Assembly (NCBI GenBank): GCA_951799405.1
Contig: OX637363.1
Coordinates: 9,300,001 to 9,364,000, forward strand
Length of the DNA: 64,000 nt
Source of the DNA: Agapetus fuscipes
Taxonomy: Eukaryota; Arthropoda; Insecta; Trichoptera; Glossosomatidae
Reading direction: 5' to 3'
This document shows, in pieces, positions 2,504 to 51,100 of this stretch; the first letter of the stretch is position 1, and each line of letters begins with the position of its first letter. The translations under genes were made by a program, and so were the position numbers. The notes under the pieces were generated by a model. That model was not told the origin of the DNA. It made no database searches and worked only from the letters and a program-made list of their open reading frames with translations.

Positions 2504-2959
2504 TGTAACGAAATACACTGGTAGATGTTTATTGGTGTACGTGTGTTTTGAGAGAATGTTCTAGCCCAGACGATTGTAATTGTAAGGTGTGTATGTAGGT
2601 AGGAAATGGACTCTTCATGAAATAAATATGTCCAGAATCGTCTATACAACTGTGGTAGTGGAACTTTCTAGGGCAGGCCGGAATGGCCCCTAGGTTCCGC
2701 TATAAGAAGGGCGACAATCGGCTGAAGTCAGTCAGTCTTCGAAGCACTCACACAGAGGAGTATCTAGTTGCCAGGGCGACCAATAAGGTGTAAAATAAAT
2801 GTAATCTGTACGAAATAAATAAGTGTGTTAAAATAAATCTGTTAGAATAAGTCTGTTAAAAATAAATCTATTGTAAGAAAGTCTGTGTAAATAAACTGTA
2901 TGGCTAACTTGTGTTAAACTTGTGTTTTAATTAAAAGAACCCTAAGGAAAAACGTAACA
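2504..2959 (+). repeat. Left LTR of copy 1
   Basis: 456 bp, TG...CA termini, reads identically to 5118-5573. It carries a TATA/initiator pair and several AATAAA-like signals after it, as expected of U3-R-U5. Confidence 0.88.
2701..2736 (+). promoter_or_regulatory. LTR core promoter (TATA + TCAGT initiator)
   Basis: TATAAG at 2701 is followed about 29 nt later by overlapping TCAGTCAGTC (first TCAGT 2728-2732), the normal spacing of an arthropod TATA box and initiator. The right LTR repeats it. Confidence 0.6.
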
Positions 2960-3409
2960 ATGGTGTCGGTGTGAAGTTTAAAACCAAGTACCAAGTAAAA
3001 ACTGTGCTTGAGACTTTTGAAAAATATATGTGGACAACATAATAAAAACTGATGAATAAAAAAAAAAAGTTTTAAATAAAACTGATTAAACTTGAATTAA
3101 AAACGATCGTGTGGTTACCCGCTAAAAATTTGATTGAAGTGTGGATAGATAACGTGTTAATAATATTGCGTTAGTGTTTGTAAATACTCATTAGCCGATG
3201 ACGAAGCAAAGTAAATAATCATTATCTAATATCATTATTTGAAATTTAAAAATAAATATTAAAAGGCGGTACCTACCTACCGTCAGTATAATTAGATAAA
3301 TTATTATTTTGCCAAAGTACGTATTTAAAATAACTTTATATATAAAACTCATAACCCGTATTAAATAAATTTGCAAATATTTTTGTTTTGAAGTTTCTTA
3401 AAATAAAAA

Positions 3410-5074
3410 ATGGCTAAGGTGAACATCAAGGACCTCAAAGTCTATGAGCTTAAGAATGAGCTTCTGGAGAGGGACCTGGAGACCTCAGGAGGGAAGGCGG
3501 CCTTACAGGCACGCCTCATGGAGGCCTTGGAACAGTCAGGCGAAGACCCGGCATATTTTGTCATGGCGTCTGGAGGGGACCGCGAGCGAGCCGTGGAAGA
3601 GTTTAAAACAAAGATGGCTGCCAACTTCAAGAGCTTGAGGGAAGACCTAGCTGGTTGGAAGGAGGAGATGGCTAAAAACCTAGCCTTAAAAATGTCGGTG
3701 GACACTGATAGTGTAAAATTCAGTGATAATCAGGATGACAAAAAGGCCGATATGTCAACTGAGGATGAGTCATCTCAGAAGTTGGGGAAGGGAGACCTGA
3801 AGGCCAAAAACAACGGCCAGCCCAAGGCTGAGGACGCAGCTGACAGCAAAGATGACAAAGATGATGTCAAGTCGGCTGAAAACGGCAAGAGTGACTCGGC
3901 CGAGGTGAAGGCTGACAAGGATGCGAAGGAGGAGACGGACGCCAAGGAGGAGGATGAGGACGCCAAGGACAAGAAGGGCAAGGCCAAGAAGGCCAACAGT
4001 GTGAAGAAGAAGCCCGCGCCCAAGAAGAAGGCGGAGGAGGCCGTGGAGGAGGCTGCCAAGAAGAAGAAGGCCGTGGAGCCGCCGGTGCCCGTGCCCGCGG
4101 GCCGGGGCATCCCCATCGACCACATCCCCGACGTGGAGGTGGCCATCTCCAGGTTCAAGATGGAGGACCTCAAGTTCCTGTACAATCAATTGTGCCGCAC
4201 GAACCTCATCAAGCGCAACAAAAAGAAGTTCAAGGGCTACGAGTTTGAGAAGGACACGCCTGAGCACAAGGCCAAGCTGGAGGAGGTGCAGAAGCTGGAG
4301 CCCAAGCAGCTGCGGACGCTGTGCGAGAAGCTGGGCTTGGACAAGAGGGGCGCGCCCACGGAGCTGGTCAGCAGGGTGGTGGGCTTCCTGCTGCTGCCAA
4401 AGCAGGTCTCCTCGCACGCCAGGGGGCTGATGAAGGAGAGGCCGGTGACTGACCGCGGCGAGGCCACGGGAGGCAGGCCCAGAAGGTCCGCTGCTGCTAT
4501 TGTCAAGAGAGGTTACTCTAACGAGGAGTATGAAACAGATCCGGAAACCAAAGTGCGGGGACCCAAAGTCAGCAGGGATGATTTAGGGGATTTAGATGGC
4601 TCGTACAACCCGAGTGGCTCCGGACAGGAGGCGGACTCTGACTTTGACCCGTCAGTGAGGAAGGGGGGCGCTCCCTCCCGCAAGCGCCGCGCCCCCGCCC
4701 GCAGGGGCTCAGCCAAGCAGAGCAAGCAGAAGGGACGACCCAAGCATGGCGCGGCAGGAAGCAACCCAGCGAGTCAGAGGACGAGAGCGAGAGTGAGAAC
4801 TTCGCTTCCGAGCAGGAGAGCGGCTCCGACGACCAAGGATTCTGATCCTTTGACGCCGGCGAGCAAGCGGGGCCTAGGAGTGGTGGCCGCCCGGGGACGC
4901 GAAGCGGTGCCCCCAGCCAAGGAAAGGCGCCCATGCCGGCCGCCAAGAGGAAAGCACCCCCCCCCCACACCAGCCAGCAATGACGGGCAAAACCCTAAGG
5001 GGAAAATTCCGTGGAACGTCATTTTTCCTGACCACTGGATGCAACTGTGGGTCAAACTGCCCGTACCTTCTTAA
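3410..5074 (+). CDS. Gag-like SAP domain fused to captured DEK protein (retrotransposon ORF, copy 1)
   Basis: 554 aa, ATG in an AAAAAATGG context. Residues 1-45 form a SAP domain (VNIKDLKVYELKNELLERDL) with a helical stretch to about 95, like N-termini of some insect gypsy Gags. Residues 100-215 are acidic then Lys/Ala-rich. Residues about 245-332 match the DEK core: RFKMEDLKFLYNQLCRTNLI, KFKGYEFEK and LRTLCEKLGLDKRGAPTELV, with the usual DEK tail LxFLLxPK. DEK is a chromatin architectural protein that binds DNA through this SAP-containing module. Residues 333-554 are basic and low-complexity, partly out of the presumed ancestral frame. There are no polymerase domains. GC content jumps near nt 4000, consistent with a captured cDNA. 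The product probably binds nucleic acid; function unknown. Confidence 0.82.
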   Translation: MAKVNIKDLKVYELKNELLERDLETSGGKAALQARLMEALEQSGEDPAYFVMASGGDRERAVEEFKTKMAANFKSLREDLAGWKEEMAKNLALKMSVDTDSVKFSDNQDDKKADMSTEDESSQKLGKGDLKAKNNGQPKAEDAADSKDDKDDVKSAENGKSDSAEVKADKDAKEETDAKEEDEDAKDKKGKAKKANSVKKKPAPKKKAEEAVEEAAKKKKAVEPPVPVPAGRGIPIDHIPDVEVAISRFKMEDLKFLYNQLCRTNLIKRNKKKFKGYEFEKDTPEHKAKLEEVQKLEPKQLRTLCEKLGLDKRGAPTELVSRVVGFLLLPKQVSSHARGLMKERPVTDRGEATGGRPRRSAAAIVKRGYSNEEYETDPETKVRGPKVSRDDLGDLDGSYNPSGSGQEADSDFDPSVRKGGAPSRKRRAPARRGSAKQSKQKGRPKHGAAGSNPASQRTRARVRTSLPSRRAAPTTKDSDPLTPASKRGLGVVAARGREAVPPAKERRPCRPPRGKHPPPTPASNDGQNPKGKIPWNVIFPDHWMQLWVKLPVPS

Positions 5075-5102
5075 AGAAAAGACTGTTCCGGGGCGGAACA
5101 GT

Positions 5103-5117
5103 CTAAGGGGGGGATAA
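5103..5117 (+). other. Polypurine tract of LTR copy 1
   Basis: A G-rich purine run directly abuts the right LTR, the plus-strand priming site of LTR retroelements. Confidence 0.7.
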
Positions 5118-5573
5118 TGTAACGAAATACACTGGTAGATGTTTATTGGTGTACGTGTGTTTTGAGAGAATGTTCTAGCCCAGACGATTGTAATTGTAAG
5201 GTGTGTATGTAGGTAGGAAATGGACTCTTCATGAAATAAATATGTCCAGAATCGTCTATACAACTGTGGTAGTGGAACTTTCTAGGGCAGGCCGGAATGG
5301 CCCCTAGGTTCCGCTATAAGAAGGGCGACAATCGGCTGAAGTCAGTCAGTCTTCGAAGCACTCACACAGAGGAGTATCTAGTTGCCAGGGCGACCAATAA
5401 GGTGTAAAATAAATGTAATCTGTACGAAATAAATAAGTGTGTTAAAATAAATCTGTTAGAATAAGTCTGTTAAAAATAAATCTATTGTAAGAAAGTCTGT
5501 GTAAATAAACTGTATGGCTAACTTGTGTTAAACTTGTGTTTTAATTAAAAGAACCCTAAGGAAAAACGTAACA
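5118..5573 (+). repeat. Right LTR of copy 1
   Basis: 456 bp, reads identically to the left LTR; followed by GTAT. Confidence 0.88.
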
Positions 5574-22100: not shown

Positions 22101-25100
22101 TTCATACGTTTCCCGATATTTAAATTGTTTGCCGCGCAATGCACACGTGTAGTACATTTTATCGCTGTGTGTTTTTTCATGACACGTTTTTACGACTGCC
22201 GGGCTGTGCGAATGTTTTGTCGCACTAGTCACATTTGTTTGCATGTTTGAAAATATAAATGGTATATTCTTTTTGTGCTCCACCGGGATGCGAACCCACA
22301 ACCTTCCATTTACAAAACAGTGTGCTAAGAATTGTTGCCGCTCCCCAGGTGAAAGAGCTGGAAGAGGAGCTGGGCGGAGATGCAGGGAAGGTGCTGCCGC
22401 GCGGCTGGGAGGCGGTGCGAGGAGGCCTGCAGCAGATGCGGCCCCTGGTGCTGCCTCCTCACCTCAGCAACATCCTGCTCATCTGCTTCATACACGCCAC
22501 CGCCACATTCGGGTGAGACACCTGCCCACATTTAATGGAAGATTATAAAAATCATCAAGTAATAACATAGAAGAGCTGAAACTAATTAACTGCATTGATA
22601 CATACTATCTACCACTATAATCTCAGTCCTGTCAAACATTGCAGTTGTGTATTCATACAAAACATGTTTTACGTTTCAAATTTTATGTTTTCTTGCTTTC
22701 TCCATGTTATATGTTGACACCCAATTAGAACACATGCCATTAATGTCTTAAAAGAATGCCCTTTTCCTGCAAAAATCTTCAATTTTGTCAATCACAAGAT
22801 TTATACCGCATGCATCTAGCACTGGTCCGGACATAGTACATAAGCGGCAATATTGCCAACTTTCTAGAAACATTTTTACATTCGCCCGAGTTTTTTTGTA
22901 CACATTGAAATGCAGCTGTGAAGTTTGTTGTTCTCTTTCTTACTAAGAACATTTTCATAAGTAGGTTGAAACAGAGAGATATTGTCTATTTTTGTTAAAA
23001 TAATTTCTAGTTCACAGATATAATATGTCAATGGTTTACGCTGTTTTAGGGGCAACACCCTAAGATTGTGGTTCCCGCAGATCGCCACCATCATCGGGGA
23101 CTACAACTCCCGCAGCAGCGACCACTCCTCCACCATGTGCGACATCCTGTCTGGCCACGTGGCCAACAAGAGTGACTCCCTGCTGCATGTGGACCATCCG
23201 CTGCTGGACTGCGTCAAGGTCGAGCATGCTTACCAGTGTCTCACAAAAGCTTCACATAAAAAATGGCATTATTACAAAACATAACTGCCTGTGTAATTCC
23301 CAATACACATGCCATGACATCTAATCTAATCTAAGTTGCAAAGATATGTTACATTGGAGATTCACATTACATGCATTCCCACAACCAGACACGTACAAGT
23401 TCGTGCTTGCACATGCCTCATGTAAACCTACAACATAAAAACCAAATCTCAAATGGGCATACACCCTACAACTCTTGCCGTCCTTCCCTGAAACAGGGGT
23501 GACATTGGCAAAGTGAACCATTTTTACAGCATGGGTGGTTAGCCGCATACCAACCTGTAAGTCAAGGAACATACACGACGAATTACATTCTATAAATCAA
23601 TAAATAACAATATCTATGGACATCAAAACAAAATCTTATTATAATCCCCATCTTCTTTTAAACTTGTCAAATTTACCAGCAAAAATAAGTTCAAATGCCT
23701 GCACTCAGCGTCTACGCATGCCAATCTTGCAGAAAAATATTATAGCTTCTCTCACACTTCACTACACCTGTTTCAGAGAAGGTCGGCAAGAGTCGCAGGG
23801 CTTATGTTCATTTGAGATTGGGTTTTTATATTGTAGGTCCACATGGGGCATGTGCTAGCGCGAACTTATACGTGTCTGCTCGTGGGAATGCATTTAATAT
23901 GAATTTCAAATGATGTATATCTTTAAAACTTAGATTTAGATTTTAGATTAGACCAATCTGCTTATTACGAGCTACCAAAGAATTTCTCCCAGGATTCTGG
24001 TTGTTAAATTAAAAAATAAAAATATGAGAGTTTTTTTGGTGACTTGTTATGCCCCAGTAGACTCAGAGTGCATGGATGTGAAAATGAGCTTCTGGAAGGA
24101 ATTGAATGAAACTATGCGCGAAAGTAAGAGTAATGAACATGTTATAATTTTGTGTGATATGAATGGATGGGTGGGTATGCAAAGAGATGAATGTCAAAAA
24201 ATTATCGGCCCCAGTGGACGAGGATCAGTCAATGATAATGGGTGACGTCTGATTGCGTTGTGTACAGAACACAGCCTTTTTGCTGCAAACACATGGTTCC
24301 AGCATAAGGATGTGCATCTGTACACAAGGCAGATTGTAGGAAGTCGCACAATCATTGACTACATTTGCGTGGATGAAAGATTGAGAGGAGCCGTAAGAGA
24401 TAGTCGAGTCTTCCGTGGCCCTGATATAGGCAGTGACCACTATCTCTTATGTGCTCAAATAATGCTTGGTGAAGTAAAAAAGAAGAAGCGTAAGAGGAAA
24501 GTAAGAACGCCTAGAATAAAAGTTGAAGAATTAAATGATGATAATGTGAAAGAGAGGTACGTATCAGAGCTCCAAAAAATTTTAAGCGTGAATGAACTAA
24601 GGAAGAATGTGAAAGAAGAAAATATTGAGAAATTGTGGGAGTACATGAAAGGGCGAATAATTGCATGTGCTAGGAAAGTGTGTGGAGAAACAAAAGTAGG
24701 AAGACTGAAAGGGGATGCATGGTGGAATGATAAAGTGAAAGAAGCCGTGAAAGAGAAGAAAAAATGCTATGAAAAATGGTTGAATGACAGGAATGATAGA
24801 AAACTAGAGAACGAATATAAGGTAGCAAAACGAATGGCAAAAAGTGTAATTTATGAAAGTAAGTTGAATGAAGAAAGTAAGAGGGATGAAAGAATCAATA
24901 AAAATTTCACTGAGAGCAAAAAAGAATTCTGGAGGTGGATCAACACTAACAGGAATAAAAAGTCTATGTTGATCACCCCAGGAGTCAAAAATGCTGCCGG
25001 TGAGATGTTGTGGGAGAATGAAGATGTATGCAAGAGATGGAAGGATTATTTTGAAGAGATCTCTGGTCAGGGTGAAAGAAGAAGCTATGCTAAAATGAAA

Positions 25101-28100
25101 GACGAGAATAAACTAAGAATTATGAAAGAAGAATTGAATGTCTGTATTAGAAGTCTGAAAAACGGGAAATCAGCTGGGATCGATGGCATAAATGGTGAAA
25201 TGATGAAAGTAGGAGGAGAATGCGTGTTAGAATGGATGTTTGCATTGTGTAAACTTTGTGTGAAAGCTGGAGTGGTACTGATGGACTGGAGGAAGGCAGT
25301 CATTGTCCCTATTTACAAAGGTAAGGGGGACAGAAAAGACTGTCAGAACTTCAGACCAATCAGTCTACTCAGTATACCAGGGAAAGTTTTTTGTAAGGTG
25401 ATAATTAAGAATGTGATTCTGACTACTGGTGGAAGGGTTTCCGATATACAGTCCGGTTTTATGACCGGTAGAGGCTGTGTTGATCAGATTTTCACTCTAC
25501 GACAACTTGTTGAAAAACAGCTGTTGGTGAGGGGAAGACTGTTCACGGCCTTTGTAGATCTAGAGAAGGCTTTCGACTCAGTGGACAGAGGTATGTTGTG
25601 GGATGTTCTGAAAGAATATGGAGTGAATGGGGCTCTCCTAAATGCGGTGCATGCAAACTATGAAAATAGTATGGCATGTGTTCGTATTGATGGCGAGTAC
25701 AGTGAATGGTTTGAAGTTTTTAAGGGTGTAAGGCAAGGATGTGTGATGAGTCCATGGCTATTTAACATAGTCATGGACAAGTGTGTCCGAGATGCTAGGC
25801 TTGATGATTGTGGATTAATGATAGGAGAGAGCAAAGTGAGTGTTCTACTGTATGCAGACGATGCGGTCCTTGTCTCTGACTCAGCATTGGAACTACAAAC
25901 AATGCTCTCTAGACTGAACGAAGCTTTGAAAGATAATCATCTGAAATTGAATGCAAGGAAGACGAAAGTTCTGATTTTTGAAAGAGATGATGAAAATATG
26001 AACTATGAGTTTAAAATAAATGGAATGAATGTCGGAATTGTCGAGGAATTTGTATATCTGGGAAGTAAGTTTGAAAAAGATGGAAGAATGACAGGTGAAT
26101 TTGAAAGAAGAATAATGAAGGGAAGGTGTGTACTGGGTGCCACCGCTGGTATAGCCAAAAACCAAAACTTATCGAAAAATGTTCGATTGGCGGTACACGG
26201 TCGGTGGTATACTAGTGCCCACTTTGATGTACGGAAGTGAAGCTTGGACGATGAATGAGAGTGAAATTAGTAAAGTCCATACGGTCGAAATGGACTTTCT
26301 AAGAAGTATGATTGGAAAAAAACGGAAAGATAGGGTGAGGAATGAGTCGGTGAGAGAAGAATGTGGTGCAAGGGAAAGTATAAAAGTAAAAATCAAAAGG
26401 GGTTTGTTAAAATGGTTTGGACATATGGAAAGAATGAATGACGAAAGACTGACGAAGAGAGTGTACGCTGCAACTATGATAGGAAGCCGTGGTAGGGGAA
26501 GACCGAGGAAAGTATGGATGGATCAAATTTCCGAAATAGCGAATGAATGGGATATTCAGAGTCATAACAAAAGGAGAGAGTGCATGAAAAAGATTATGAC
26601 TCTGAATGAAATGAAAGAAGTATGTAAGGACCGAAAGGAATGGCGGTTGATTTGCAACAATGGCGGTTAGGGCATTAATTCTAAGTGTAATATTAATTTT
26701 AATTTTACTTAATTTTAATTTTGATTTGTAATGTGTCTCATTCTGAATTTCTGTATATCATTTATAATTTTTTGTGCTCCTTGACTGATAGGTTGGTACG
26801 AGGCTGACCACCCGTGCTGTAAAAATCGGTTCACTTTTGCCAATGCCACCCCGGTTCAGGGAACGGCGGCAGGAGTTGCAAGGTTTATGTCCATGTGAGG
26901 TTTTCTTTATTTGTATGCACACATGCAGAATGTGTAGGCGAGAATCTACATGTGCCTGTCTGTGGGCATGCATTTCATATGAGCCTTAAATGCTTACATA
27001 TCCTTGCAGCTTAGATTATAGATTATAGATTATAGAACCCATGTTTTTATTTTATGGGTCTGCTACTTATCAAAGAAATTCAACAACAATGCCATAGACC
27101 CCAATTAGAGTTGAGGTGGACTAATTCAAATTCCCCTACATGCATTATTCAAGTATTGAATTAACCTACCATTATTTAAATATATTTTGTATTGTTTGTG
27201 GATTAACACTGTGAAAATTCATATTGTTTAATTTTATAATTTTTTGATGAATTAAAAACACTGTTTATTTTCACGGATAAATTTATTCAAAAAGATTAAA
27301 ATCCTTAAACAAATTACGAACGTTTTCGACCTAGTAGGTCATCTTCAGGTACGTTTTCGACCTAGTAGGTCATCTTCAGGTATCATACCTGAAGATGACC
27401 TACTAGGTCGAAAACGTTCGTAATTTGTTTAAGGATTTTAATCTTTTTGAATAAATTTATCCGTGAAAATAAACAGTGTTATTCATCAAAAAATTATAAA
27501 ATTAAACATTATTTAAATGTTTATTTTGTACTCTCGAAAATTCCAAACATCAATGTTTGATTTGCAGTTGGACACTGGTGCCACCACGTACGTGAACAGC
27601 GCCATCATCGGCCTGGGCACCATGGTGGGCTACCTGACGGGCGGGGCCATCATCTCTGCCGTGGGCAAGCGCCGGCTGGCCTGCAGCACGCTGATCATCA
27701 GTGGCCTCTGCTCCTTTTGCCTGTTCTGGAGCTCCTCCCTGCTGGAGACCGTGGCACTCTTCACCGTGTTCATCTCCGTGGCCGGCGTGGGCTGCAATGT
27801 GCTGTTCTCCGTCACAGTGGACATGTTCCCCACAGCCATCAGGTAGGCAGCGTTCCAGGATGTGACGTCGATGGATCTTCCGATCTTTGGAGTGTTCCGT
27901 TAGGCCCTGGAAGACTGTCGGATCCATCTACGTCATTTTGACGTCACATCGTGGCTAGCCAGCCGTGCTGCGTTTTGGCGGGACTCATATTCTCCGCATT
28001 TTATTTTTGAAAATTATCAATGATATCTTTATTTTTACTACTTAAAAAATATATATGGTTGTGATCCTTGAAATGTACTCTACAAACCCATAGTATTATA

Positions 28101-42100: not shown

Positions 42101-45100
42101 GTTGATAGGTGATGTCTTATAGGTTGATAGGTGATGTATTATAGGTTGATAGGTGATGTCTTATAGGTTGATAGGTGATGTCTTATAGGTTGATAGGTGA
42201 TGTATTATAGGTTGATAGGTGATGTCTTATAGGTTGATAGGTGATGTATTATAGGTTGATAGGTGATGTCTTATAGGTTGATAGGTGATGTCTTATAGGT
42301 TGATAGGTGATGTCTTATAGGTTGATAGGTGATGTCTTATAGGTTGATAGGTGATGTCTTATAGGTTGATAGGTGATGTCTTATAGGTTGATAGGTGATG
42401 TCTTATAGGTTGATAGGTGATGTCTTATAGGTTGATAGGTGATGTATTATAGGTTGATAGGTGATGTCTTATAGGTTGATAGGTGATGTCTTATAGGTTG
42501 ATAGGTGATGTCTTATAGGTTGATAGGTGATGTCTTATAGGTTGATAGGTGATGTCTTATAGGTTGATAGGTGATGTCTTATAGGTTGATAGGTGATGTC
42601 TTATAGGTTGATAGGTGATGTATTATAGGTTGATAGGTGATGTCTTATAGGTTGATAGGTGATGTCTTATAGGTTGATAGGTGATGTCTTATAGGTTGAT
42701 AGGTGATGTCTTATAGGTTGATAGGTGATGTATTATAGGTTGATAGGTGATGTCTTATAGGTTGATAGGTGATGTATTATAGGTTGATGATAACAACTGC
42801 TATACCTTGCATACACTGAGGATGTGATTTTTTGTCCCCAGGATTTTGAGCATTAACGTCTCAGTAGAGGTATGCTCAAACCCTCCTCGTACCCGTCCTG
42901 TATGTATGTGTCAGAAGGACTCACAGCACATGGACGCTCATACAAAGCCATGTATTTTCTCAAGTGACGGAAGGCCTAAGTAAAAGCAACGGCACAACAA
43001 AACAAGAACCTCTAGGTCAGAGGCGTGCCAACGACTCTAAAAGTAAATGGTTCGATGTTACTGAAGCTAATAGCATACCTCGGGTGGCACTCCTTGTGGG
43101 ATTGTTTCTAGATCACGAGTAGCGTGAAAAATGATATGGGTGCATAATACAAAATAATACAAAAAAATCTAAGGACAGGATTACTGTGAATCCGCTGTGG
43201 ATGCAGCTTGGCAAAAGGAAGCCCAAAATTGCTGAAAGGCAGAGGAATTTGATTTCGTAGCAACACGTAACCGATTGGGCCAATATCCAGCTGGAGGATC
43301 CAATATCCAAGGAGCGCAACCCGATCAGAGTGTTGCAATGGACAGTGCCACAAGATGTGAGGTAGTAGTAAGGTACATGAACAGTTGTCTTGTGTAATCT
43401 AGAACAGAGATCGAATGGTCTCGAATATGCAAGAAAGATCTCTTTTACGCCTATATAAAGGGACTGCAATGGGGCATCAGGGGAGTGTTGATTAAACCAT
43501 TGAGCCGTGAAGCCGAAAGCTAGAAATCAATTGTTGTAAATTGCGAACCGAATTGTCTAAAATAAATAAAATGCAGTTTAATTAAAAGAGAACCCAGTAA
43601 AATCATAACAGTGTGTTGTTTTCCTTGTCTGCAGGAGTCCAACGCCCTGACCAAATGGTCCCTGTCCACAGCGGAGGCCACCCTGCTGGTGTCCGTGCAG
43701 CTGGCCCTTCCCGCGGTCTCTTACTTCAGCGCCCCGCTGCTGCTGGTGGACAGCGTGCTGTGCCGCAGCCTGGACATCGTCAAGCAGAGAGTGCCGGCCG
43801 TGTACCTGCCCACTGAAACTGTAAGGAACATAACACATTCCAACAGAAAGAAGTATGTAGGGACAGAAAGAAATGGCTGTTAATCTGTACCTAATGCTGG
43901 CGGCTAGGGTTTTTAAAATTAGTATTCTGTTTTAGTTTTGATGTCCGTAGATATTATTATTTATTGATTTTAATAATGTAATTTGTTGTGTACGTTCCTT
44001 GACTTATAGGTTGGTATGCGGCTGACCACCCATCTATAATCTATAATCTAAGTTGCAAGGATATATTCATTCAAAGCTCTCAGATGTATGCCCACAAACA
44101 AACACGTGTAGTTCGCGCTTACAAATGCTGATTGTGTACTTACAAATAAAATCCAAACCTCAAATGAACATAAGCCCTGCAACTCTTGCCGACATTCTCT
44201 GAAATAGGGTTTTTTTTTTTTATACTTAAATGTTATTTATTACTCGTATTCCTTGACTTAATAATAATAATAATAATAATTGGACAATTTGTATACAGCG
44301 CCGTTTAGTGGCACTAGCCACCCCAGGGGCGCTTTTATGTGTTGAAGCTTCTGTTAAACAAATGTGTCTTAAGCAACTTCCTGAAACTGCCAACACTGGT
44401 CTCTGTTCTCAACTCCAGAGGTAGACTATTCCAGCAGGATGGACCAGCCGAACTAAAAGCCCTGTCTCCGAAACCAGTTCTGTTCCGTCGAAGAGGCAGT
44501 TGAAGCCTGTTTACGGCGTCACTCTGTGCAGAACGAAGAGTGCATCGTTTTCCACCTATCTGGTCGACTCTGCACAATTCACACAAGTACGATGGGGCAA
44601 CTCCTCTGAGGGCATTAAAAACAGAAACACATATTTTGTACTCAATCCTCTCTGGGACTCGCAGCCAATGAAGGCGCCGCAACAGAGGAGAGACATGGTC
44701 AGTTTTTCGTCCTCCTAAAAGTAATTTGGCTGCAGCATTAAAGACGGACTGCAGTCTAGACTGCTGAAACCTTGGAAGACCCCAGAACAGACCATTGCAA
44801 TAATCCAGTCTCGACACAACAAAGGACGCAATGAGAATCTTAGCAGCTTCGGATGTCAAACAGTTCCTGACCCATCTCAACTGCCTCAGGTGAAAAAAAC
44901 AGGAGCTCACAGTCGAGCTTATTTGCGTACTCATGGAAAGAGTGTTGTCAAGATGGACCCCAAGAAACTTAATTGAGCTAGATGGATATACATCCAGGCC
45001 CATTACTTTAATTGGTGAAGAGCCAAGCAAGTGTTTCCTACCAGGAGACGACATCCAGATGAATTCTGTCTTGTCTGGATTCATTCTAAGGCGACACCTT

Positions 45101-48100
45101 GCCATCCACTCAGCCACCACTTCAATGCACCGGACCATCTCAAGACTACAGGCATCTGTCATAGATGGCTGACAGAAACGACAAAGTAGAATATCATCAG
45201 CATAAGAATAGTAGCTGGTGCCGTTCATCAGTACAGTGCTCTCAAGATCATTTGTGTACAGGGTAAAAAGTAAAGGCCCGAGCACAGATCCCTGAGGCAC
45301 ACCACAGTCCATGGGCATACCTGATGACTCACCATCAACATCCACAGTCTGACATCTGCCTTTCAGATATGAAGATAGCAGTTTAGATACTCCTCCTCGG
45401 ACTTATAGGTTGGTATGAGGCTGACCACCCATACTGTAAAAAATGGTTCACTTTGCCAATGTCACCCCTGTTTCAGGGAAGGACGGCAAGAGTTGCAGGG
45501 CTTATGTTCATTTGAGATTGGGTTGTTATATTGTAGGTCCACATGCGGCATGTGTTAGCGGGAAATTATACATGTCTGCTTGTGGGAATGCATTTAATGT
45601 AAATCTTGAATGATATATATCTTTGCAGCTTAGATTAGATTAGATTAGATTTACCAATGACCGGTCACCAAAGGTCCATCCAGCCTTGCAGCAACTGGGT
45701 CTTGCTTGAGTATTGGCGCTTTGTAGCGACAACCAAGCTCGTACACCTCTGCGGCACTACAACAAGTGTCATAGACCCCTAGAGTCTCTAGAATCTAGGG
45801 AGTCTCCCGCACAGGATTTCTTAAAAAAAAAAGTATGGGAGTGAAAATTCAGGCTGCTATCAAAAATAATAGCCAGATCCTTTACTTGTGGTGATGTTGC
45901 AGCTGTACCACAATGCCCAGGAGCTGGTGGAGAGCGTGGTGGTGCGGCCCGTTCTGCGGCGCGCCGACTCCGTGAAGCAGCTAGGGACAGCGGTGCTGGA
46001 GTCCCGCGTGTCTGTGTATGCTGCCCAGTCTCTGGACAGTGCGCTGGACAAGGCCGACAGCTACGTGGACAAGTACCTGCCAGACGACTCCCAGGATACA
46101 ACAGATGGTGAGGAGACGACAACTAACACTCTAGTTTTAAGTAAGAGTCTTAGGCTTACACGGCCGGCTGATGATACTGGAGTGATGTTTTCCTGGATCT
46201 GTTGCCGTGGTCTATGGGAGCTGGAGCTTCCCGGTGTTTTGCCCATGTCTACAGTGGGCTTCTTCAGCGTGAAGTGTGATGATGAAGATGATCTTGATGA
46301 AAACTGTGATGAAAGTGTGTGTACATCAATGGCGAAGGGTGCCATACAAGCTGGTTCCCATCGGCTTTCCGTTTAAAATGAGCCAGAAATGATAATAAAG
46401 TAGACTGCATGGTTTCAATGGGAAAAAAATACATATTCAGTGTTACTTATTAGATTTTCTTATTCTAAGCTTATCACCGGGCATAGCTATGCCCGGTGTA
46501 AAAAGTTATACCTGGCATAAAAATTTCTTACTTATAATCATGGCATAAACAAGGAATTACTGTTCTCAAGAAATTATTTTTCCATGTTACCACACTGAGG
46601 CTGCGCATGCGCAGATTTTTATTCATGCCTCTAGCGCGCATTTTAAATTTTTTTGACATTCCAATCTGACAGCTTACACACCACGCAGGAGTTACTTTTT
46701 TGATGATGAATCCAAGAAAACGTTTTTTTTAAATAATATTCTCTGTAATTTGTTCATTCACATTTATTGTTAAAAAATATTCTTAATAACTTCCTAGTTT
46801 TATTCTGAAGTAGTATTATAAAAAAAGTGTACACATGTTTAATTAGGTTTTTATTGACACAAGCAAAAGGTATAATAAAATAAAATTTAAAAATTCTGCG
46901 GAATAAAAACTTTTCTGGATATAATACCTATTTGATTGTCATTTTCCATTAAGGCTGTGTTCAAAATTAAAAATCCCGTTGTTTTAAAAAATATGTTTCT
47001 TATACTTTATGGCCTTAGTAAAAGAGTGACATTAATAAAAAAAATCACGCGTGTTAAATATTTTTTTATATTGTAACGAAATACACTGGTAGATGTTTAT
47101 TGGTGTACGTGTGTTTTGAGAGAATGTTCTGGCCCAGACGATTGTAGTTGTAAGGTGTGTATGTAGGTAGGAAATGGACTCTTCATGAAATAAATATGTC
47201 CAGAATCGTCTATACAACTGTGGTAGTGGAACTTTCTAGGGCAGGCTAGAATGGCCCCTAGGTTCCGCTATAAGAAGGGCGACATTCGGCTGAAGGGAGT
47301 CAGTCTTCGAAGCACTCACACAGAGGAGTATCTAGTTGCCAGGGCGACCAATAAGGTGTAAAATAAATGTAATCTGTACGAAATAAATAAGTGTGTTAAA
47401 ATAAATCTGTTAGAATAAGTCTGTTAAAAATAAATCTATTGTAAGAAAGTCTGTGTAAATAAACTGTATGGCTAACTTGTGTTAAACTTGTGTTTTAATT
47501 AAAAGAACCCAGGAAAAACGTAACAGTGGTGTCCGGTGTGAAGTTTAAAACCAAGTACCAAGTAAAAACTGTGCTTGAGAGTATTGAAAAATATATCTGG
47601 ACAACATAATAAAAACTAATGAATAAAAAAAAAAAGTTTTAAATAAAACTGATTAAACTTGAATTAAAAACGATCGTGTGGTTACCCGCTAAAAATTTGA
47701 TTGAAGTGTGGATAGATAACGTGTTAATAATATTGTGTTAGTGTTTGTAAATACTCATTAGCCGATGACGAAGCAAAGTAAATAATCATTATCTAATATC
47801 ATTATTTGAAATTTAAAAATATATTTTTTTGTAAAATAATTTGTTTTGAAGTAAATTATTTTGAAGTAAATTTAAATTTTTGTTAAAATAAAAAATGGCT
47901 AAGGTGAACATCAAGGACCTCAAAGCCTATGAGCTTAAGAATGAGCTTCTGGAGAGGGACCTGGAGACCTCAGGAGGAAAGGCAGCCTTACAAGCACGCC
48001 TCATAGAGGCCTTGGAACAGGCAGGCGAAGACCCGGCATATTTTGTCATGGCGTCTGGAGGGGACCGCGAGCGAGCCGTGGAAGAGTTTAAAACAAAGAT

Positions 48101-51100
48101 GGCTGCCAACTTCAAGAGCTTGAGGGAAGACCTAGCTGGTTGGAAGGAGGAGAGGGCTAAAAACCTAGCCTTAAAAATGTCGGAGGACACTGATAGTGTA
48201 AAATTAAGTGATAATCAGGATGACAAAAAGGCCGATATGTCGTCAACTGAGGATGAGTCGTCTCAGAAACTGGGGAAGGGAGACCTGAAGGCCATAAACA
48301 ACGGCCAGCTCAAGGCTGAGGACGCAGCTGACAGCAAAGATGACAAAGATGATGTCAAGTCGGCTGAAAACGGCAAGAGTGACTCGGCCGAGGTGAAGGC
48401 TGACAAGGATGCGAAGGAGGAGACGGACGCCAAGGAGGAGGATGAGGACGCCAAGGACAAGAAGGGCAAGGCCAAAAAGGCCAACAGTGTGAAGAAGAAG
48501 CCCGCGCCCAAGAAGAAGGCGGAGGAGGCCGTGGAGGAGGCTCCCAAGAAGAAGAAGGCCGTGGAGCCGCCGGTGCCCGTGCCCGCGGGCCGGGGCATCC
48601 CCATCGACCACATCCCCGACGTGGAGGTGGCCATCTCCAGGTTCAAGATGGAGGACCTCAAGTTCCTGTACAATCAATTGTGCCGCACGAACCTCATCAA
48701 GCGCAACAAAAAGAAGTTCAAGGGCTACGAGTTTGAGAAGGACACGCCTGAGCACAAGGCCAAGCTGGAGGAGGTGCAGAAGCTGGAGCCCAAGCAGCTG
48801 CGGACGCTGTGCGAGAAGCTGGGTTTGGACAAGAGGGGCGCGCCCACGGAGCTGGTCAGCAGGGTGGTGGGCTTCCTGCTGCTGCCAAAGCAGGTCTCCT
48901 CGCACGCCAGGGGGCTGATGAAGGAGAGGCCGGTGACTGACCGCGGCGAGGCCACGGGAGGCAGGCCCAGAAGGTCCGCTGCTGCTATTGTCAAGAGAGA
49001 TTACTCTAACGAGGAGTATGAAACAGATCCGGAAACCAAAGTGCGGGGATCCAAAGTCAGCAGGTATGTATTAGGGGATTCAGATGGCTCGTACAACCCG
49101 AGTGGCTCCGGACAGGAGGTGGACTCTGACTTTGACCCGTCAGTGGGGGAGGGGGGCGCTCCCTCCCGCAGGCGCCGCGCCCCCGCCCGCAGGGGCTCAG
49201 CCAAGCAGAGCAAGCAGAAGGGACGACCCAAGCATGGCGCGGCAGGAAGCAACCCAGCGAGTCAGAGGACGAGACCGAGAGTGAGAACTCCGTTTCCGAG
49301 CAGGAGAGCGGCTCCGACGACCAAGGATTCTGATCCTTTGACGCAGGAGCCGGCGAGCAAGCGGAGCCGAGGAGCAGTGGCCGCCCGGGGACGCAAAGCG
49401 GTGCCCCCAGCCAAGGAAAGGCGCCCATGCCGGCCGCCAAGAGGAAAGCACCCCCCCCCCACACCAGCCAGCAATGACGGGCAAAACCCTAAGGGGAAAA
49501 TTCCGTGGAACGTCATTTTTCCTGACCACTGGATGCAACTGTGGGTCAAACTGCCCGTACCTTCTTAAAGAAAAGACTGTTCCGGGGCGGAACAGTCTAA
49601 GGGGGGGATAATGTAACGAAATACACTGGTAGATGTTTATTGGTGTACGTGTGTTTTGAGAGAATGTTCTGGCCCAGACGATTGTAGTTGTAAGGTGTGT
49701 ATGTAGGTAGGAAATGGACTCTTCATGAAATAAATATGTCCAGAATCGTCTATACAACTGTGGTAGTGGAACTTTCTAGGGCAGGCTAGAATGGCCCCTA
49801 GGTTCCGCTATAAGAAGGGCGACATTCGGCTGAAGGGAGTCAGTCTTCGAAGCACTCACACAGAGGAGTATCTAGTTGCCAGGGCGACCAATAAGGTGTA
49901 AAATAAATGTAATCTGTACGAAATAAATAAGTGTGTTAAAATAAATCTGTTAGAATAAGTCTGTTAAAAATAAATCTATTGTAAGAAAGTCTGTGTAAAT
50001 AAACTGTATGGCTAACTTGTGTTAAACTTGTGTTTTAATTAAAAGAACCCAGGAAAAACGTAACAATATTAATTTTAAAGTTAGTTTTTTTTATATAACT
50101 TAAAAAATGACGCCACAAAAAAATATTTAAAAAAACGGTTTTTTTTAATACATTTTTTGCTCACATTTTGTTGTTTTGTATTTTGGAAATATTTTTTTTC
50201 TTCATAATTATAGAATGATACAAATTCTAGTAGGTGGTGTGATTTTTAATAGAATAATGTGAATTGTTTTTGCGATAATATGAAAAAACTTACACTTATT
50301 AACTTATTTAATTCTTGAAAACAGTTTTTTCATATTTGTATATAATTCTTTTTTGTATACTTTTTGTGCCCTAATGTTGCTAATTCTGTTCAAATTTGTC
50401 AAGAATTGCGAAAATCCATCCATACTTTTGACCACGATTGACACTTTTGACAGATGTCATTTGACAAAAACTTGTTATTCCAAGCTTATACTACCCTCCA
50501 ACCAGGAATAATGGCTCTAGGTCGTTAAGCCAGGTCTATACCTGAGTTATCTTTATGAAATGATTATAAGTAACAATTTATTGCTATTCCCTCGTTATAC
50601 CAGGCATAAATCTTATTCTCAATTTATAAGTAACACTGATTGTTTCTTTGGTTTTAAATGTATTTTTTTACTTTGTGCCTATATATTTTAACTACTTTGT
50701 TACATCATTTTAAAAGGAAAGCCGATGTAAACCAGCTTATATGGCACCATTTTCCACTTGTGTACACTCGGGGTTTACATGTGAAGAATGATGAACTCTG
50801 CATATGAGTTGTGTTGTGGAGCAGTGACATCTGTTTATTTTGCATGTGAAACTGTGGGGTATAACAGCAAACCATCTTGCTTCTACAAGCACGTGTTTGT
50901 CACTTAAAATATTCCAAGTTTCACAATGAAATTCATAGATGGCGCTTTTTCATCGTCACACTTCACGCTGAAGAAGCTCATCGTAGACGTGGGCAAAACG
51001 TCCAGAAGCTCCAGCTCCCATAGACCACGGCAAAAGATCCCAGTAAATGTCACTCCAGCAACTGTAGTTTTAGATTCACTGCACAATCTGTCATCAGAAC

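Follow-up and report, generated by a model that had tools for sequence, protein, structure and literature searches.

A family of short LTR retrotransposons in Agapetus fuscipes carries an intronless copy of the host DEK gene fused to a SAP-headed Gag

A short LTR element with a Gag-DEK fusion ORF

The window, the whole stretch of 64,000 nucleotides analysed here, contains at positions 2504-5573 a complete, short LTR element of 3070 bp, which we call copy A and whose features described below lie on the forward strand unless stated otherwise. The 5′ LTR with TG...CA ends (2504-2959) and the 3′ LTR (5118-5573) are both 456 bp long and show 0 differences from each other. The element is flanked by GTAT on both sides, a 4-bp target duplication that is weak on its own because the flanks sit within an ATGT microsatellite. 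Directly 3′ of the 5′ LTR is a putative primer-binding-like site, TGGTGTCGGTGTGAAGT (2961-2977). This TGGTGTCGG... site is a candidate primer-binding site only; a tRNA scan of the window found no tRNA gene. At the opposite end, a purine tract, AAGGGGGGGA (5105-5114), is separated from the 3′ LTR by the three bases TAA. The intact LTRs and polypurine tract noted in the initial annotation were thus borne out.

The leader (2960-3409) lies upstream of the ORF and, together with the start of Gag, aligned at 86-90% identity over ~345-370 bp with six SAP-Gag loci (L076-L081) picked from the match list. The fusion ORF of 554 aa (3410-5074) was delineated from the ORF listing and from Pfam, PDB and protein searches. 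It opens with the SAP domain of the Gag head (3425-3532; residues 6-41, PF02037, E 5.9e-10), followed by the rest of the Gag head with a coiled-coil remnant (3533-3691), a longer in-frame version of which is found in the copies L011-L014. A structure model of the ORF, of low confidence (mean pLDDT 45) and used for helix placement only, has a helix at residues 58-97. By comparison with the host gene, the intronless DEK part that follows (3692-4973) begins with the start codon of coding exon 1 and extends through coding exon 10; it includes the DEK core (4094-4405), which is delimited by PDB DEK chains and the host comparison. The tail (4974-5117), including the purine tract, is unlike the next host exon and is probably of retroelement origin.

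The initial annotation had described this ORF as the only long one. On the forward strand, the description stands, since no other frame of at least 150 aa exists in the 2158-bp internal part; on the antisense strand, however, a frame of 270 aa runs from stop to stop at 3770-4582, most likely a side effect of GC-rich codons. Its statement that polymerase genes are lacking also holds for copy A, where Pfam showed no protease, reverse transcriptase or integrase domain in the fusion ORF, the sole forward frame of at least 150 aa. The other copies were judged to be polymerase-free from their length and alignment. Without these enzymes, the element should need help in trans.

The DEK part corresponds to a host gene in the same genome

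As judged from sequence comparison, the DEK identity of the ORF rests on a PDB match, two protein matches and the comparison with the host gene. Residues 170-349 match the DEK chain 8kcy_K (E 1.1e-13), and the ORF matches two lepidopteran DEK proteins, P0001 and P0002 (E 6.5e-66 and 6.5e-54, respectively), which were the sole two matches among the 7994 candidates scored. Both SAP and DEK hits had been anticipated in Pfam. The SAP domain was found, whereas no DEK model was named in the Pfam search of the ORF and DEK was seen via the PDB and protein searches. Pfam also indicated that the C-terminal DEK_C domain (PF08766), present in P0001, P0002 and at the host DEK gene, is absent from the ORF. 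Beyond about residue 440, the frame departs from DEK, and the ORF tail is partly out-of-frame DEK. A protein search restricted to the first 109 residues gave nothing informative, nor did IMG/VR scans with the fusion ORF and with the SAP-headed metagenomic protein P0003.

The DEK_C profile identified three places in the genome, and the host DEK gene lies on contig C11, where the DEK_C exon is identical to Eumeta DEK at 51 of 51 residues. Upstream of this exon, the gene has ten coding exons with GT-AG borders, numbered here with the start-codon exon as coding exon 1. Their joined frame of 535 aa has no stops and is 54-56% identical to P0002 and P0001 over ~320 residues. At the two other DEK_C places (L072 on C9 and L073 on C1), we observed no adjoining DEK core match within the 3-kb loci.

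The element copies follow the coding exons of host DEK in order, with the introns absent. Nucleotide identity is 90-98% in most exons and 73-78% in the acidic coding exon 3, and coding exon 4 together with the first part of exon 5 is not evident in the copies compared; part of the DEK acidic stretch is missing from the element. The host exon after coding exon 10 and the DEK_C exon are also absent. An intronless host sequence thus lies between the LTRs, and its host locus is identified in the same genome. Identity at this level ruled out a chance likeness to DEK. The possibility, raised in the initial annotation, that the ORF is the ordinary Gag of an autonomous family merely resembling DEK draws on the Gag SAP head at its start; it is already refuted by the match to most host coding exons, and we regard it as practically nil. 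Neither is the SAP head the SAP box of DEK itself, because it precedes the DEK start codon and occurs in SAP-Gag loci. The central claim of that annotation, capture of host DEK by an LTR element and fusion to a Gag-type SAP head, finds support in the presence of both the host gene and SAP-headed Gags in this genome.

A multi-copy family with recently moved members

A second family member, absent from the initial annotation, occupies positions 47072-50065 of the window on the forward strand (copy B). Its LTRs of 454 bp (47072-47525 and 49612-50065) are identical with 0 differences, its fusion ORF is open for 557 aa in the frame listing (47895-49568), and a clean target duplication, ATAT, is found at 47068-47071 and 50066-50069. 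Copies A and B are 97.5-98% identical in aligned stretches, and their LTRs differ at 9 of 456 positions. No further copy was found in the flanks (L009 and L010).

Searching the genome (618 Mb) with the DEK protein, we found at least 67 DEK-bearing places with E ≤4.3e-66, far beyond chance (67 of 1313 first-look candidates were scored). The LTR search gave at least 40 matches of 98-100% identity (40 of 1091 candidates scored), and four solo LTRs with target duplications are among these loci. A hand tally of both genome lists and the window, based in part on the list entries alone, gave at least about 92 separate family places. The LTR search put forward in the initial annotation revealed a multi-copy family rather than one element, but not the autonomous partner with the same LTR that it was also meant to uncover: there was none among the 30 of the 40 scored LTR matches inspected (L041-L070).

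We examined 32 copies, namely L011-L040 and the two window copies, 12 of which had two full LTRs in the sequence examined. In all 12, the LTR pair differs by 0-1 base, and 11 have equal 4-bp target duplications. The close similarity of their LTR pairs shows that these 12 moved in recent times. This recent age is limited to the young copies, as L011-L014, which are the most diverged, are outside the 12. Several members deviate in organization. L019 and L024 have longer frames of 662 and 665 aa, and the tail of L019 contains the arginine-rich part twice as a tandem duplication. Two DEK places located 2.5 kb apart on the same strand (G000, C26:9184012 and C26:9186545) are possibly a tandem pair with a common LTR.

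SAP-headed Gag relatives

SAP-headed Gags are abundant in the same genome as the element. P0003 had at least 146 matches (116 of 1738 candidates scored), mostly in frames of ~460-510 or 799-834 aa and three in frames of 1880-1896 aa. A different, older type of head, borne by L011, L013 and L014, leads to L082-L084, three loci among the 66 matches listed. These three continue into a capsid-like part, in which L084 has a stop. In L082 and L083, this part reads HNLPTFDGKTSWEEYMTLFE, which may resemble a Ty3-type Gag capsid. Pfam assigned no Gag family over the cut-off to L082 and L083, with PNMA at only E 0.1, below the cut-off, and a PDB search with the L083 piece returned nothing. The 4-bp target duplications are as in Ty3/Gypsy elements, although not specific to that group. 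The 631 bp upstream of the L082 Gag have no clear likeness to the LTR of the family. Because two different Gag heads sit on the same DEK payload, we suggest a later exchange with resident Gags. Elsewhere (G000, C8:12693060-12696535), one SAP-Gag match is separated by ~1.6 kb from a DEK-element match on the other strand.

The joins and the origin of the family

The 5′ join is the start of coding exon 1. L011, the element copy nearest to host DEK in protein, matches the host at 58 of 58 bases around the start-codon exon, beginning four bases before the exon. Those four bases, ACAG, are also present in the Gag loci, and ACAGAG is common to host and Gag at this join. The reading frame passes from Gag through 11 bases of the DEK leader into the DEK start codon. 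Up to the join, L082 and L083 each agree with the older element L014 at 104 of 110 bases, and they have Gag thereafter, where the element has DEK: the likeness to the element ends with GGAACAGAG, followed by ACAATG in both loci and by CTCTTAAAAATG in L011. The 3′ join, defined from the host side only, coincides with the end of coding exon 10 to within 0-3 nt. This exon ends CACACCAG, the element continues CCAGCAATGACGGG, and the next host exon begins CCAAAAAG, so that the break may lie 0-3 bases past the exon border. The exact 3′ join string was found in 26 of the 30 loci L011-L040 and the start-codon string, which is inside the DEK exon, in 25 of the 30. The initial annotation had looked to the host gene for capture junctions at exon boundaries, and both joins were indeed located near host exon borders.

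Splicing was at first our preferred join step, as favoured by the host side, where the 5′ join is at an AG before coding exon 1 that resembles a putative splice acceptor and the 3′ join is at the donor of coding exon 10. A provirus beside or inside DEK would have been read through, and splicing would have linked Gag to the start-codon exon at one end and a downstream part of the element to coding exon 10 at the other. This explanation was weakened once the Gag loci showed no donor: L082 and L083 read ..GGAACAGAGACAATG at the join, without a GT. In addition, the LTR, the leader with the Gag head, and the tail are unmatched in the 16-kb host DEK locus, save for one 23-bp match (E 0.033), and the tail of copy A (queried as 4979-5117) had no match within these 16 kb. 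Capture via a spliced chimeric transcript is, in our estimation, unlikely. Template switching onto DEK mRNA appears to fit better than splicing because no splice donor is present in the two Gag loci whose likeness to the element extends to the join.

We consider it probable, at roughly 0.85, that this is a non-autonomous LTR family, presumably of Ty3 type, which was born when a reverse transcriptase copied spliced DEK mRNA along with the RNA of a SAP-Gag retrotransposon and which has since spread in trans. The reverse transcriptase of a SAP-Gag element would have switched from its own RNA onto the spliced DEK mRNA and then back. The resulting product would have consisted of the LTR, the leader, the Gag SAP head with its coiled coil, DEK coding exons 1-10 with a shortened acidic part, and a retroelement-type 3′ end. 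It would thereby have retained the cis requirements for moving, namely the LTRs, the leader with the Gag start and the purine tract. With enzymes supplied in trans by relatives, it could have spread to many copies, with DEK probably now being mostly a passenger.

Divergence and selection on the carried DEK

The carried DEK and its Gag head have changed in several ways. In the young copies, the Gag coiled coil is reduced in length relative to L011-L014. The element lacks a segment around the coding exon 8/9 border, and its frame is shifted across the acidic exon 9, which reads arginine-rich and then returns to DEK before drifting again.

The synonymous difference from host DEK is 0.126-0.152, set against the identical or nearly identical LTR pairs, and the fixed differences between the host and the 24 usable copies comprise 22 synonymous and 1 non-synonymous changes, a ratio that largely reflects host constraint. 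Both observations would suit capture of DEK in a related species, followed by entry of the element into this lineage by horizontal transfer or introgression. However, the same pattern is expected if the host gene and the element diverged since an old capture, and we hold an origin outside the lineage to be quite improbable.

We also considered that the Gag-DEK protein serves the element, for example by chromatin tethering or by blocking host silencing, and has been kept by selection. Frames of at least 500 aa are open at 65 of the 67 scored DEK places, with stops inside the match at 5 of the 67. We rejected such open frames as proof of selection, since the antisense frame is also open and the protein-score search that yielded the copies favours intact ones and ranks them first. 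Also in favour are the pN/pS values between the host and single copies (0.27, 0.23 and 0.22, with 0.07 for L011), though much of this is host constraint. Among 24 of 29 copies (25 had a qualifying frame, and L015 lacked the end marker), SAP codons 1-45 gave a pN/pS of 0.22 and codons 46-94 one of 0.95; the corresponding values were 0.49 for the DEK N-terminus, 0.96 for the core and 1.23 for the part that follows. Thus, the SAP head and the DEK N-terminus speak for a protein kept by selection, whereas the core and the part after it speak against it, and the constraint on the SAP head may stem from exchange with functional Gags. The drift of the tail from the DEK frame likewise argues against such a role.

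We counted synonymous and non-synonymous changes by branch for 24 of the 32 copies (L012, L013, L015, L016, L022, L034, L039 and L040 were left out). The branch to L011 has 10 synonymous and 5 non-synonymous changes, in favour of a kept protein, in contrast to 8 and 23 on the young branch (Fisher p 0.011). Three other young copies gave p values of 0.013-0.021, which are not independent. L014 compared with two young copies showed no difference in branch ratios. Copies A and B differ with pS 0.025 and pN 0.020. Pairwise pN/pS between older and young copies ranged from 0.40 to 0.80 overall, with core values scattered between 0.41 and 2.94 on few changes. These values suggest that DEK in the young lineage evolves close to neutrally. 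The benefit in packaging, targeting or silencing escape proposed in the initial annotation is therefore not supported, and a current function of Gag-DEK for the element seems doubtful to us. DEK may have been constrained once and is now close to a passenger. A more speculative and rather improbable extension is that Gag-DEK was a working selfish protein in an early phase. Its SAP domain and coiled coil would have bound the partner Gag and its DEK core host chromatin, making it easier for the element to find or keep open chromatin; the constrained L011 lineage would then be a remnant.

Comparison with known gene-capturing retroelements

Transduction of a cellular gene by a retroelement is an already known phenomenon. 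LTR-mediated retroposition in metazoans, in which the reverse transcriptase of an LTR element switches template onto host mRNA, was reportedly described by Tan et al. in 2016. Retrocopies of this kind are usually single loci, unlike Gag-DEK, which has LTRs and propagates as a family. TRIM, LARD and other non-autonomous LTR elements are short, have no polymerase and are moved in trans; unlike TRIM and LARD, the family described here carries a long ORF with a host gene. Acute transforming retroviruses, the defective carriers of oncogenes, have Gag fusions and need a helper, and the maize element Bs1 is without a polymerase of its own. To our knowledge, the source gene, Gag relatives, join sites and many recent copies are seldom found together in one genome for captures by LTR elements in animals.

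Bs1 is outlined as an LTR element with a composite ORF made up of retroelement and host gene sequence (a transduced H+-ATPase and parts of two other genes) in connection with template switching in plants (PMC13317346), and in its joint retroelement-host ORF it resembles our family. Bs1 contains fragments of three plant genes, whereas the present family carries, in many copies, one animal chromatin gene that is present from its start codon onward over most of ten coding exons. Like the family, acute transforming retroviruses have taken up a host gene, a capture which, as outlined in PMC515179, appears to depend on a chimeric transcript. Unlike them, the family is dispersed in the germline, no env or tumour setting was seen, and the joins fit template switching on a spliced mRNA. 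TRIM elements are the topic of a report on ants (PMC3532108). No DEK-bearing retrotransposon was named in the titles and abstract openings of the literature searched, a scope that most subscription papers fall outside. The family is an unusually clear case of a jumping element carrying off a host gene and allows capture by template switching to be tested at single-base resolution. It also represents a chromatin gene multiplied by a retroelement, with the carried DEK differing from the host gene at ~13-15% of synonymous sites. Elsewhere in the window, long frames at 24246-26670, 44335-45402 and 60359-61297 resemble LINE-type reverse transcriptases by eye.
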